Shown in pieces: positions 35,731 through 40,630 of a stretch of 64,000 nucleotides of DNA. The notes below the pieces were generated by a model. That model saw only the letters and a program-made list of their open reading frames with translations, was not told the DNA's origin and made no database searches. Numbering within the stretch: the stretch's first letter is position 1; the number at the start of each line of letters is the position of its first letter. A program made the position numbers and the translations under genes. Origin of the DNA: an uncultured Cohaesibacter sp. (GTDB lineage: Bacteria; Pseudomonadota; Alphaproteobacteria; Rhizobiales; Cohaesibacteraceae); NCBI RefSeq assembly GCF_963682185.1, contig NZ_OY821667.1, forward strand, positions 4,291,501 through 4,355,500, in the 5' to 3' direction.

Positions 35731-35745
35731 TGCGAACAATTCGCA
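35731..35745. promoter_or_regulatory. Inverted repeat TGCGAA-N3-TTCGCA, putative metalloregulator operator
   Basis: A perfect 6+3+6 inverted repeat starting 2 bases after a TTGACT -35-like element (35723-35728), so a bound protein would block the promoter. A near copy, TTGCGAT-N2-ATCGCAA, lies at 38724-38739 between the divergent MFS and permease genes. The half-site resembles Fur-family boxes; the regulator is not proven. Confidence 0.55.
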
Positions 35746-35802
35746 TCAGGTTTTAGCTCAAGAACACCGAGCTGGGCCTTGAACCCAACATTGGAGATAG
35801 AT

Positions 35803-36837
35803 ATGAAACAGTCCTTCCGTGCGACGGTGTGCGTCGCCGCACTTATGGTCTCATCTGCGAGCGTGAGCTTTGCTGCAGATGAAGTCAATATCTACTCCTA
35901 TCGCCAGCCATTCCTCATCGAGCCTCTGCTTGAGGCCTTTACCAAGGAAACTGGCATTCGCACCAATCTGATTTTTGCCAATAAGGGGCTTGAAACCCGC
36001 ATCAAGGCGGAAGGGGAATATTCACCGGCCGATCTGTTGCTCAGCACCGACGTTGGCCGCCTTCAAGCCGCAGCCCAGCAGGGCATTGCGCAGCCAGTGG
36101 TCTCCGATATCCTGAAGGCCAACATTCCGGCTCATTTCCGCGATGGTGACAATCAGTGGTTTGGCCTCACTTCGCGGGCCCGTGTCGTCTACGCTTCCAA
36201 AGAGCGCGTCGAGCAGGACAGCATCACCTATGAAGAGCTGGCTGATCCGAAATGGCAGGGCCGCATTTGCACCCGTTCCGGCCAACATGATTACACCATC
36301 GGCCTGATTGCCTCGATGATCGTGCATCACGGCGCTGAGGAAGCCAAGACATGGCTGGAAGGCGTCAAGGCCAATCTCGCGCGTCGCCCAGCGGGCAATG
36401 ATCGCGCACAAGTCAAGGCAGTCTATGCCGGCGAATGCGATATCGCGCTCGGTAATACCTATTATATGGGCAAGATGCAGACCAACGACAAAGAGCCTGA
36501 GCAAAAGCAATGGGCAGAGTCGGTCCGCATTCTCTTCCCCAACAGTGATGGGCGCGGCACGCATGTGAATATTTCGGGCATGTTGTTGACCAAACACGCG
36601 CCCAACCGCGAAAGCGCCCTAAAGCTGATGGAATTCCTGTCTTCGGAAGAAGCCCAGCAGATCTATGCGGAAGGCAATTTCGAATATCCAGTCAAGGAAG
36701 GCGTAGAGCCATCTGAGCTGGTTATGAGCTGGGGCAGTTTTACGCCGGATTCAATTGAATTGTCCAAGATTGCCGATGCGCGCAAAGAAGCATCGGAACT
36801 GGTTGATATTGTCGATTTTGACGCGGGGGCGAACTAG
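35803..36837 (+). CDS. fbpA: Ferric-iron ABC transporter periplasmic binding protein (FbpA/AfuA type)
   Basis: A 344-residue exported solute-binding protein: signal peptide ending SVSFAA near residue 25, then the family opening EVNIYSYRQPFLIEPLLEAF, TGIRTNLIFANKGLETRI, and the paired-tyrosine iron site region in ALGNTYYMGKM. These residues match the FbpA class that binds free ferric iron. GGAG lies 6 bases before the chosen ATG. The start is preceded by an Irr-like box and an inverted repeat, suggesting iron repression. The downstream trailer is unusually long and structured. The permease lies 2 kb further on, separated by an opposing MFS gene. Confidence 0.9.
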   Translation: MKQSFRATVCVAALMVSSASVSFAADEVNIYSYRQPFLIEPLLEAFTKETGIRTNLIFANKGLETRIKAEGEYSPADLLLSTDVGRLQAAAQQGIAQPVVSDILKANIPAHFRDGDNQWFGLTSRARVVYASKERVEQDSITYEELADPKWQGRICTRSGQHDYTIGLIASMIVHHGAEEAKTWLEGVKANLARRPAGNDRAQVKAVYAGECDIALGNTYYMGKMQTNDKEPEQKQWAESVRILFPNSDGRGTHVNISGMLLTKHAPNRESALKLMEFLSSEEAQQIYAEGNFEYPVKEGVEPSELVMSWGSFTPDSIELSKIADARKEASELVDIVDFDAGAN

Positions 36838-36940
36838 AGTTCGCCAGCGTGTCAGGAAGAGTTTTAAAGGAACAGATTTTTAAGGAGAAGAATTTCCCGA
36901 ATTGGCAGAAGGGAAGCAAGCGTGATTTCACTGCAAAGCA

Positions 36941-37305
36941 AGGTGGGTTGTACTGGTCCTACAACTTTTCTTCGAGCAACCCTTCGCCAATAAAGCGCTT
37001 GGCGGTCGACAGATGCGATACTGGTCCTCTCGCGTCGACTGACTGCTAAGAGCGCTTCCCCTAGCGGTCCTGCATAGATGGCTCCATAACAAAGCTGGTC
37101 CCTTTGTTATGATGCGTCATCAAGTAAACAATCTTATGCTTACCGGGTTTATCCCGGAAAGACAAGAATGTGGGACGGTACATAAAATCAATCGGCCAAA
37201 CTTATGTGGAAAGCTGGTCCCTTTCCCATTCTCCACCTTGTCCGATTGACCCTTTATGGCAAGTGCCACGACGGTTTCTATCCGTCGTGGCACTCTTGTT
37301 TTTGG
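36941..37305 (+). ncRNA. Highly structured RNA with repeated CUGGUCC hairpin loops
   Basis: No coding frame is convincing; instead nearly every segment pairs. Hairpin 1: GTTGTA/TACAAC (36947-36965). Then CGCCAA/TTGGCG (36985-37004); GTCGAC/GTCGAC with inner GCGA/TCGC (37005-37039); a weaker one at 37061-37077; CATAACAAAG/CTTTGTTATG (37085-37111); CCGGG/CCCGG (37143-37157); GGAAAG/CTTTCC (37208-37226) inside TCAATCGG/CCGATTGA (37188-37249); and a terminator. Four of these loops are exactly CTGGTCC (36953, 37021, 37095, 37214); the weaker hairpin shows GGTCC. Stems differ completely in sequence while loops are identical, which implies the loops are recognised. It is either a separate small RNA or the 3' trailer of the iron-binding protein mRNA. 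Confidence 0.75.
37262..37303 (+). terminator. Strong terminator ending the CUGGUCC RNA
   Basis: A perfect 13-bp stem, AGTGCCACGACGG with CCGTCGTGGCACT (37262-37294), a 7-base loop and CTTGTTTTT downstream. Confidence 0.93.
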
Positions 37306-37373: not shown

Positions 37374-38558
37374 TCAGGCTGGAAGCTCTTCGGCGGCAGC
37401 GTCCGTGCGGCGTGTCGCGACCAGCGTTATGATGCCGGCTACAGCAGCAAGGGATGCCGACAGCACAGCAGTACGGTAATCGAAATAGCTGGCAATGATC
37501 CCCATCAGCGAGCCACCAACCAACCCCGAAAGGAACATGGAGTTGGTGTAAAGCGCCATGGCATTGCCTATGAAACCACGCGCGAAGGACTGCATGAAGG
37601 TGATGCTGACCGCGGCAAAAATACCGAAATAGGTGCCTTCGATGGCTGCTGCGATAGACATTTCTGTCAGCGAGTTGATCGTGGAGAGATAGCTATAGCA
37701 GACGACGGCCATGAGGCTTGCCAGAATCATGGCATTGCGCACGCCCATCTTTTTAAGCAAGCCCGGTGTGCCCAGAATCACCACCACTTCAAAGAAGCAT
37801 TTTACAGTGATTGACAGGCCCGGCGCATAGTCCGGCAAATGAACTTCCTTGATCATAAACAGCGGAGCTGAGGATAGGGCCAGCGAGTTGCCAAGCGCAA
37901 TGAAGAAGCAGGCAACGGTAGCGGCCCAGAGAGGGAAGTTGAAGTTGCTGGTCGCTGCCGCGTTGGCTGCAGCTGAAGCCGCATGGGCTGGATGAGTTCG
38001 GCGAAATGGTTGTTTGAGCGTGATATGCCACACCAGAAGCCAGACGCAGCCAACAGAGACCGCCAGCTCGAACACGATCATGTGGCCATACACACTGGCA
38101 AGGGCGAAACAGAGCGCAGGCGCAACCATCCAGGCCAGCGACATCATGGCCCGGACACGAGAATTGAACTTGGCTGAGTCCAAATGGGATTGCTCCGAAT
38201 AAAAGCGGGCAAAGCTCAGAATGGTGCCAATAGCCGAATTGGCAATAGCCAGACAGGCTGCAAAGATTGTCACCAGCGTCCAGTAGCTCGTGACCACCAA
38301 CAGCGAGCTCATGGCTGCCAGATAGCAAAAAATGGAAGCCAGCAGCAGTTTGCGGATGTCCCAGCCCTGATCGATTTTCTTACCCACAAAGCGGTTTGCC
38401 GTAACCGCCAACACTGTGGCCACCAGAGAATAAAGGCTGATCATCATGGGAGACTTCTGCAAGTCTTCGATGATGAACAAACCCATGAAGGGCACGGTTG
38501 CTGCATTGGAAAAGGAACCGACGAACACCAGAACAAGCACGAGATATTGATTAGGCAT
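37374..38558 (-). CDS. MFS transporter, SET/sugar-efflux-like
   Basis: A 394-residue inner-membrane protein with twelve hydrophobic helices in two halves joined by a polar, Ala-rich loop (THPAHAASAAANAAATSN). Features resembling the SetA-type efflux branch of the major facilitator superfamily include GLFIIEDLQKSPMMISLYSL and FARFYSEQS. Substrate unknown; position inside an iron locus makes export of a siderophore, chelator or sugar conceivable. The start at 38558 (MPNQYLVLVLV) fits the first helix but has no clear ribosome site; an upstream frame reaching 38702 lacks family features. It is divergent from the permease gene and convergent with the structured RNA. Confidence 0.8.
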   Translation of the reverse strand: MPNQYLVLVLVFVGSFSNAATVPFMGLFIIEDLQKSPMMISLYSLVATVLAVTANRFVGKKIDQGWDIRKLLLASIFCYLAAMSSLLVVTSYWTLVTIFAACLAIANSAIGTILSFARFYSEQSHLDSAKFNSRVRAMMSLAWMVAPALCFALASVYGHMIVFELAVSVGCVWLLVWHITLKQPFRRTHPAHAASAAANAAATSNFNFPLWAATVACFFIALGNSLALSSAPLFMIKEVHLPDYAPGLSITVKCFFEVVVILGTPGLLKKMGVRNAMILASLMAVVCYSYLSTINSLTEMSIAAAIEGTYFGIFAAVSITFMQSFARGFIGNAMALYTNSMFLSGLVGGSLMGIIASYFDYRTAVLSASLAAVAGIITLVATRRTDAAAEELPA

Positions 38559-38723
38559 GACAATGGACACTTGCAGGATCGCATGGCCACAAAACGGGAC
38601 ATGTGAGATTATTTCAGGGAAGATGGAAAGCCCCAGAGGCTTGAAACGAAACGCGCTTGAAACGATAGAAGCTGGAGGGGGAGTTTCGGGTCTTTGACCC
38701 AAGCTTTAAGCAAAATAATTAAT

Positions 38724-38902: not shown

Positions 38903-40630
38903 ATGACCAAGCCAGATGATGCCGCATCCGCCATCACCGCCAACGGTCTGATTTCGCTGTTAAAGAGCAGGCTTTCCGGTTGGGGCTCTCCTCGCGCGAT
39001 GGGTTCGTCGCGGTTGGCCCTCTTGCTGCTGGCCCTCATTCTGTTGATGGTGATTGCACCGATCCTGTCTCTTGTTGTGATTGCTTTTGGCGATGCCGGT
39101 GACGTTTGGCCGCATCTGTTATCAACCGTTCTTCCACGTTCGGTCATGACAACAATCTGGCTGATGCTCGGGGTAGGCGGGTTGACCGCGCTGATTGGTG
39201 TTTCGACCGCATGGCTGGTGACAATGTGCCGCTTCCCCGGACGCGCATTGTTCCAATGGGCGCTGTTGATGCCCTTGGCCATTCCCACCTATATCGTGGC
39301 CTATGCTGCGGTGGATCTGTTTGACTATTCCGGTCCGGCACAAAGCCTGATCCGCAGGCTCCTCGGGGTTCAGAGCGCGCGCGACTATTGGTTTCCCGAG
39401 GTGCGTTCGCTTCCCGGGAGCATTCTGGTCATGAGCTTTGTGCTTTACCCCTACGTTTTCCTGACAACGCGCGCCACCTTCCTGATGCAATCGGCCTGCG
39501 CGCTGGATGTCTCGCGCACTTTGGGCGCCGGGCCTATGCGACTGTTTTTTGCCGTGGCTCTGCCTCTGGCCCGTCCGGCCATCGTCGTCGGGGTTACGCT
39601 TGCCATGATGGAATGCCTCAACGACATCGGTGCGGTGGAGTTTTTTGGCGTCAAGACGCTGACCTTCAGTGTCTATGACACATGGCTCAACAGGGCCAGT
39701 CTGGCAGGGGCAGCGCAAATCTCCACTGTCATGCTGCTGGTGGTTCTGCTGTTGCTCTGGCTTGAGCGGCGCGGGCGGAGGGAGCAGCGCTTTTCGACCA
39801 CAACGCGGCGCTATCAGTCCTTGCCCAGTTTCCGCCTTGGCGGCTGGCGGGCAGGGCTGGCTTTTCTGGCCTGCGCCTTGCCGATCTTGATCGGTTTCCT
39901 GTTGCCTGCGTCCATTCTTATGCGGTCGGTCTTCTTTCATTGGCGCGATAATCTCAATGCCGATTTTCTCGCCGCGATGGGCAATTCGCTCTTTCTGGCG
40001 AGCTTTGCCGCAGTGCTGACGGCCGTACTCGGAACGGCTCTGGCCTATTTCGCCCGCACCCAGAAGAGCGCTCTGGTCAGCGCCGTTACACGTCTGTCAT
40101 CCATCGGTTACGCCGTACCCGGAACCGTGTTGGCAGTCGGCATACTCATTCCTGTGGCTCAATTGGACAATCTCATCGCTGCAAGCATGCGCGATTGGTT
40201 CGGGCTGGCGACTGGCCTTATCCTCATAAGCTCCGGCGCTGCGATGCTCTATGCTTATTGCGTGCGTTTCATGGCCATGTCCTATGGCGCGGGCGAAACG
40301 GGTCTGCAGCGCATATCTCCCAATCTGGAAGCGGCGTCTCGCACGCTTGGGCGTTCATCTTGGCGTACTTTGGTGGAGATTGATCTGCCCCTTATCCGGC
40401 CTTCATTGATATCCGGTGCCTTGCTGGTTTTTGTCGATGTCATGAAGGAACTGCCAGCGACCATTCTATTGCGGCCCTTCAATTTCGATACGCTGGCCAC
40501 GCTGGTTTATGGGCAGGCGTCGCTGGAGGCTTTCGAGAAGGGAGCATTGGCAGCGCTGACAATCGTAGCGGTGGGGCTCGTGCCGGTCATTTTTCTGTCC
40601 CGCACTTCAAGCCACTCGATACACGGCTGA
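38903..40630 (+). CDS. fbpB: Ferric-iron ABC transporter permease (FbpB/AfuB type)
   Basis: A 575-residue double-length permease with about twelve membrane helices and two ABC-permease cytoplasmic loops: the first near SRTLGAGPMRLFFAVALPLARPA and the second SRTLGRSSWRTLVEIDLPLIRPS, each containing the EAA-type LG-x5-F/L-x-P pattern that docks the ATPase. It should work with the periplasmic iron-binding protein encoded 2 kb upstream. GGAGG lies 4 bases before the ATG. No ATPase (fbpC) gene follows, which is unusual; a terminator-like hairpin and AT-rich DNA come next. Confidence 0.9.
   Translation: MTKPDDAASAITANGLISLLKSRLSGWGSPRAMGSSRLALLLLALILLMVIAPILSLVVIAFGDAGDVWPHLLSTVLPRSVMTTIWLMLGVGGLTALIGVSTAWLVTMCRFPGRALFQWALLMPLAIPTYIVAYAAVDLFDYSGPAQSLIRRLLGVQSARDYWFPEVRSLPGSILVMSFVLYPYVFLTTRATFLMQSACALDVSRTLGAGPMRLFFAVALPLARPAIVVGVTLAMMECLNDIGAVEFFGVKTLTFSVYDTWLNRASLAGAAQISTVMLLVVLLLLWLERRGRREQRFSTTTRRYQSLPSFRLGGWRAGLAFLACALPILIGFLLPASILMRSVFFHWRDNLNADFLAAMGNSLFLASFAAVLTAVLGTALAYFARTQKSALVSAVTRLSSIGYAVPGTVLAVGILIPVAQLDNLIAASMRDWFGLATGLILISSGAAMLYAYCVRFMAMSYGAGETGLQRISPNLEAASRTLGRSSWRTLVEIDLPLIRPSLISGALLVFVDVMKELPATILLRPFNFDTLATLVYGQASLEAFEKGALAALTIVAVGLVPVIFLSRTSSHSIHG

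Follow-up and report, generated by a model that had tools for sequence, protein, structure and literature searches.

A conserved RNA with four identical hairpin loops behind fbpA in Cohaesibacter, a candidate iron-sparing regulator

We have analysed a window of 64,000 nucleotides, the whole stretch of DNA under study, from an uncultured Cohaesibacter sp. The locus of interest comprises a gene for an iron-binding protein (fbpA), a structured RNA, an MFS transporter gene and an ABC permease gene (Table 1). FbpA relatives on Sinorhizobium replicons show 63-64% identity, which suggests Hyphomicrobiales as the order. The RNA lies directly 3' of fbpA in all 13 neighbourhoods compared. A homologue of the MFS gene between the RNA and the permease gene was not found in G005, G007, G012 and G016 (of 13), and its place beside the RNA would reflect insertion or loss. 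The window contains no tRNA or tmRNA.

Table 1. Features of the locus (window positions) and genes with a complementary site at the start (loci, L; genomes, G; G000 is the own genome; several loci in one row need not follow the order of the genomes)
Feature	Position or locus	Strand or genome	Basis
Inverted repeat TGCGAA-CAA-TTCGCA upstream of fbpA	35731..35745	.	putative iron-regulator site; perfect repeat
fbpA (P0001), Fe(3+) ABC transporter substrate-binding protein	35803..36837	+	phmmer 7e-111 to FbpA 1q35; Pfam SBP_bac_6
Structured RNA, four YUGGUCCY hairpin loops	36899..37300	+	covariance model, 18/18 genus genomes; covariation
Outer helix P1 enclosing hairpin 1 (arms 36904-36912 / 36981-36988)	36904..36988	+	5/8 pairs change both sides
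Hairpin 1, loop CUGGUCC 36953-36959	36945..36967	+	7/8 pairs change both sides
Helix GCGCTT/GAGCGC around hairpin 2 (37012-37036), loop core 37021-37027	36995..37055	+	consensus fold, covariation
Helix GATGGC/GTCATC around hairpin 3 (37088-37108), loop 37095-37101	37077..37121	+	consensus fold, covariation
Hairpin 4, loop 37214-37220	37208..37226	+	covariation
Intrinsic terminator, 33-nt stem-loop, 13-bp stem, T tail	37262..37294	+	6/12 counted pairs change both sides (13 genomes)
MFS transporter gene, sugar-efflux-like	37374..38702	-	homologue at same place in nine of 13 genomes
Two-domain ABC permease gene, fbpB-like	38903..40630	+	in four genomes lacking the MFS gene there, the RNA is followed by this gene as next window homologue
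Cytochrome c'	L535, L482, L400	G000, G005, G011	Pfam; site at start
2Fe-2S ferredoxin	L433, L462, L572	G000, G005, G011	Pfam (L433, L462); 88-94% identity (L572); site at start
Tat 4Fe-4S protein	L568, L428	G000, G005	Pfam; site at start
Cytochrome c	L421, L588	G005, G012	Pfam; site at start
COX1	L420	G005	Pfam; site at start
ODP (flavodiiron-type) protein	L432	G005	Pfam; site at start
Sulfite/nitrite reductase	L367	G012	Pfam; site at start
Aconitase	L540	G000	Pfam; site at start
ILVD/EDD dehydratase	L530	G000	below Pfam's cut-off; site at start
Fur-family regulator	L537	G000	Pfam; not counted as iron-cofactor protein
ChaN haem-binding protein	L470		Pfam; not counted as iron-cofactor protein

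The heptamer CTGGTCC occurs at 36953, 37021, 37095 and 37214, all on the + strand. These are exactly the positions given by the sequence-only reading, which had described four hairpins with CUGGUCC loops in a densely folded region. The 5.39-Mb genome holds 577 copies of the heptamer with both strands counted, and four copies on one strand within 365 nt would be expected about 0.0002 times genome-wide. On folding, all four copies fall in hairpin loops, and the region folds more stably than every one of 100 dinucleotide shuffles (z = -5.8). Since the opposite strand scores z = -5.4 too, folding energy leaves the strand unsettled; the terminator and the loop motif suggest the + strand.

Several details of the first description needed revision. 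The conserved RNA already begins near 36899 and not at 36941, and the predicted loop of hairpin 2 is larger than seven bases (UACUGGUCCUC), so that the seven-base loop does not describe this hairpin. A fifth, weaker GGUCC (37066-37070) varies, being AGTCC or AATCC in 4 of 13 aligned genomes. The stems had been called unrelated; in the own genome, this does not apply to hairpins 3 and 4, whose stems both end in AAAG/CTTT and share the 15-mer AAAGCTGGTCCCTTT, but across 18 genomes of the genus the stems are diverse, hairpins 1 to 4 being represented by 15, 8, 14 and 11 different 23-mers, respectively.

On the 13-sequence alignment A1, the eight helices of the RNA have 94.8% of cells paired, and both sides change in 33 of 59 pairs, as against 6-12 in slid controls and 14.5 on average in shuffled ones. 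Because the structure comes from the RNAalifold consensus of this very alignment, the comparison is tilted in its favour. The clearest covariation is in hairpin 1, with an invariant loop on a stem in which nearly every pair changes on both sides. A coding region was rejected, as indels between relatives do not come in threes and no conserved ORF was seen by eye.

The loops are far better conserved than the rest of the RNA. When they were located by the expression [CT]TGGTCC, exactly four were found in the region of each of 18 genomes, and UGGUCC is present in 72 of 72 loops. The base before it is C (63) or U (9), and the base after it is U (45) or C (27). In the 13 aligned genomes, whose identity to the window falls to 48.5% overall, all 28 loop columns are invariant compared with 75 of 372 other columns (hypergeometric 1.5e-18). 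This strongly supports the earlier proposal that the loops are under selection for recognition. As a finding that would refute it, the sequence-only reading had named relatives that keep the gene neighbourhood but have lost the loops, and no such loss occurred.

A covariance-model search of related genomes, also proposed at the outset, was run with a model (R1) of the middle part of the RNA, 137 positions, and found the RNA in all 18 genomes of the genus. Among the 397 genomes of the order searched, these 18 included, R1 gave one further match (G308, E = 0.0018), which we judged to be chance as its 3-kb locus is without YUGGUCC on either strand. By blastn against 100 relatives, the region was found in 10 genomes of the genus besides the own, and outside the genus only a 25-base match in another family (G053) was obtained; the plasmids and phages searched gave no homologue outside the genus. 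R1 was silent at 24 fbpA loci of other genera (L284-L307, from 184 genomes with a match), and in these no more than one YUGGUCC is found per 400 nt, whichever strand is read. Scans for three copies of CTGGTCC at set spacing returned at least 117 and at least 120 stretches, mostly from unrelated organisms. We treat these as chance or coding repeats because R1 on 47 loci, 22 of them from these scans and 25 others, gave nothing below E = 0.5. The RNA-bearing DNA is single-copy in its own genome. No Rfam 15 family reached its gathering threshold anywhere in the window, and the sequence-only reading had likewise recognised no named family; a permissive Rfam search of the locus gave only ctRNA_pGA1 over the terminator (26.7 bits, E 0.003, cut-off 45).

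With regard to expression, 84-189 nt separate the C-terminus of fbpA from the first loop downstream of it in all 18 genomes, and in G005 the conserved GAATTGG starts 24 nt past the fbpA stop. By eye, the stretch from fbpA to the RNA is poorly conserved, whereas the promoter region of fbpA is conserved. Considering this spacing and the weakly conserved gap, co-transcription with fbpA is likely, and the RNA probably belongs to the fbpA transcript. In G010, a GC-rich terminator-like hairpin was seen by eye between the fbpA stop and the RNA (AGCCCGGCTCTGGTCGGGCTTCTT; L324 1290-1350), and accordingly the RNA may have its own promoter in that genome. The inverted repeat upstream of fbpA, which may resemble Irr-type boxes, is a possible iron-regulator site. 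Its core GAANNNTTC is present in 11 of 13 upstream stretches; the remaining two (G005 and G012) began inside the gene and were too short upstream. A separate hairpin, UGGG-CCUUGAA-CCCA (35773-35787), stands just ahead of the fbpA Shine-Dalgarno in 13 of 13 genomes, with one loop base different in G007 and variable sequence above it, and it is a possible autoregulatory leader site.

With respect to what the loops recognise, one candidate is a protein. In this case, an RNA-binding protein would recognise YUGGUCCY, and the array would titrate or scaffold it in the manner of CsrB or RsmZ, which likewise carry one hairpin loop several times over. A loop that stays the same while its stems diverge is a classic sign of titration, and each RNA would offer four sites. 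Nevertheless, we consider this reading unlikely. As noted at the outset, the loops lack the GGA core of Csr/Rsm RNAs, being YUGGUCCY in 72 of 72 cases, and clear matching hairpins were not seen elsewhere. A 19-nt hairpin model gave 10-24 matches per genome at E of at most 10 in nine genomes (rough E-values, from the best 150 candidates per genome), up to four of these matches being the array itself, which is no clear excess over the ten expected; such a model would miss unstructured sites. Seven other matches were read; two of these (L354 and L355) are largely intergenic and the other five fall within long ORFs, and no two of the seven looked by eye like the same gene. The match in L355 (1481-1545, G010) is a long hairpin (CGGGTGTCTTTCACA...TGTGAAAGACACCCG) with AAGCTGGTCCCC in its loop.

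It is also conceivable that the RNA acts only in cis, as a 3'-UTR stabiliser or an attenuator that sets the expression of fbpA over fbpB. Its position directly 3' of fbpA with a terminator ahead of fbpB would suit this role, as would the permease gene being the next window homologue in 4 of 13 genomes. However, neither stability nor attenuation needs a fourfold identical loop that is kept down to 48.5% overall identity, and exact GGACCAG is absent between the RNA and the permease gene in the 12 loci that were read. We therefore regard a purely cis-acting element as quite unlikely.

On the other hand, the loops may catch a trans-acting small RNA with GGACCA, as sponges such as SroC or CrfA of Caulobacter do. 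SroC derives from the gltI-gltJ intergenic region, and the setting is alike in that both RNAs have a binding-protein gene on one side and a permease gene on the other. Sponge RNAs are known in Alphaproteobacteria, as described in an excerpt of PMC12559287. The same excerpt gives the alphaR8 core UUUCCUCCCU, which is not complementary to UGGUCC, and the present RNA differs from SroC and CrfA by its four identical loops. A sponge is unlikely in our view, and neither of the two mechanisms named by the sequence-only reading, titration or a sponge, obtained specific support, the hairpin model having given no clear excess in nine genomes. Its further suggestion, that the loops kiss one another to fold or multimerise the RNA, is highly improbable: GGUCC is self-complementary except for one U-U mismatch, but the motif is not a perfect palindrome, and kissing partners could co-vary, which fits poorly with loops that are UGGUCC in 72 of 72 cases.

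The total invariance of the loops, together with edges that may be C or U, argues against loop-loop pairing and fits a partner molecule, which could be a protein or an RNA that places G across from both edges. Such edges around UGGUCC fit pairing in trans, because a G in trans allows either G-C or G-U. Considering the invariant loops, their free edges and the lack of a clear excess of loop-hairpins elsewhere, we sought the complement of the loops at start codons. The pattern RGGACCAR-N(2-9)-ATG, whose AGGA part is a Shine-Dalgarno, was scanned in four genomes and gave 85 sites in G000, 49 in G011, 80 in G012 and 75 in G005. We read all distinct sites of G000 except one inside the RNA, 74 of 75 in G005, 46 of 47 distinct ones in G011 and 16 of 80 in G012. 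Many of the sites precede a short ORF or none. Others stand at the starts of genes for iron proteins (Table 1).

The ferredoxin gene was found in 12 of 18 genomes, and GGACCA lies at -12 or -11 in nine of these 12 with diverged flanks; the site is absent from the ferredoxin genes of G007, G012 and G016. The sites of the aconitase, dehydratase, COX1, sulfite reductase, ODP and Fur-family genes were each found in one genome. There are nine recurring sites, and five are at genes without a known iron cofactor, namely those for citramalate synthase, malate synthase, ComEC, TRAP DctQ and an ABC exporter.

For the statistics, ORFs of at least 60 amino acids at the sites (63 entries with duplicates, covering part of G000) gave 60 proteins for scanning, which were chosen partly by eye, so that a selection bias is possible. 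Of these, 13 had no Pfam match, and the other 47 form 40 orthologue groups by our own count. As controls we took 40 genes from DNA neighbouring G000 loci (the first 40 of a shuffled 51), 33 of which had a Pfam match. With Pfam families that we take to bind iron, there are nine iron-cofactor families among the 40 annotated groups and one among the 33 controls (Fisher one-sided p = 0.016), or two among the controls when ferrochelatase is counted as iron-related (p = 0.049). The single iron enzyme of the controls is of the MbnB/TglH/ChrH family, which we take to be iron-dependent. The 60 proteins include ten ORFs from the later reading of G000, and none of these ten was counted as iron; among them is a U32 peptidase, some relatives of which carry Fe-S. 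Among the 13 pairs or sets of homologous sites, we kept the nine at likely gene starts and dropped NuoG and the U32 peptidase, which are inside reading frames and whose families can both carry Fe-S, as well as two short ORFs. Four of the nine groups kept, with a site at a likely gene start in at least two genomes, are iron proteins (p = 0.005, or 0.013 with ferrochelatase). Pairing at the iron targets was not found to be stronger or longer than at chance sites (one-sided p = 0.98) but the reverse, the predicted duplexes being weaker, with medians of -16.2 versus -18.3 kcal/mol. Complementary sites at the starts of iron-protein genes are thus supported but not proven by these statistics, which are modest and partly hand-picked.

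Overall, the evidence leans toward base pairing with the ribosome-binding sites of mRNAs. That the RNA is an iron-sparing base-pairing RNA from the fbpA transcript, similar to RyhB in logic and not in sequence, is a reading for which we see our belief and doubt evenly balanced. In this reading, the 3' part of the fbpA transcript, or a transcript from a nearby promoter, would yield a conserved non-coding RNA that stops at its own terminator, with the seed YUGGUCCY displayed on each of its four hairpins. Under iron scarcity, fbpA would be transcribed and the RNA would build up. Its loops, possibly with a role for Hfq, would then pair with GGACCA at or just past the Shine-Dalgarno of mRNAs for iron proteins such as cytochromes, ferredoxin, the 4Fe-4S protein, aconitase and the dehydratase, which would stop translation and spare iron. 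Four copies of the seed may provide higher avidity or allow one RNA to serve several mRNAs. To our knowledge, one seed repeated four times is unusual for base-pairing RNAs.

RNAs of the RyhB, PrrF, NrrF and FsrA type target aconitase, cytochromes and Fe-S proteins. Like them, the present RNA would lower the synthesis of iron-using proteins, and the kinds of targets overlap. Unlike them, it is about 400 nt long, has four identical seeds, is alphaproteobacterial and has no Rfam match, and it lies behind an iron-binding-protein gene instead of being a free Fur-controlled gene. These four, the standard iron-sparing RNAs, are named in PMC3751524 and PMC11005374; the former supposes an unidentified iron-responsive small RNA and speculates on an operon giving two. 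The present RNA offers a concrete candidate in other alphaproteobacteria, one whose seed is defined and whose candidate targets can be named. Among the literature matches listed, there was neither an RNA of this kind after fbpA nor an iron-sparing RNA of Alphaproteobacteria.

IsrR of Staphylococcus uses C-rich regions that act on the Shine-Dalgarno regions of iron-enzyme mRNAs and, similar to our RNA, has several such single-stranded regions, and two of these sit in hairpin loops (PMC9410917, in part). According to the same part of this source, the C-rich regions of IsrR number three and differ in role, and the RNA comes from a Fur-controlled gene of its own; the present RNA, by contrast, repeats one YUGGUCCY loop four times and lies 3' of fbpA. 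RusT of Caulobacter is an iron-starvation-responsive small RNA in an alphaproteobacterium, as our candidate would be, but it is 118 nt long and NtrYX-controlled, and many of its targets are outer-membrane transporters, with no iron-sparing set in the portion of PMC11005374 consulted. It is possible, and we lean slightly to doubt, that the present RNA is an alphaproteobacterial iron-sparing RNA behind an importer gene, where one transcript would import iron and silence its consumers, possibly including a Fur-family regulator, through four seed loops. The Fur-family gene of the own genome (L537), Irr-like by eye, carries AGGACCA five bases ahead of its ATG. Should this site be genuine, iron regulation would come under feedback from the RNA.
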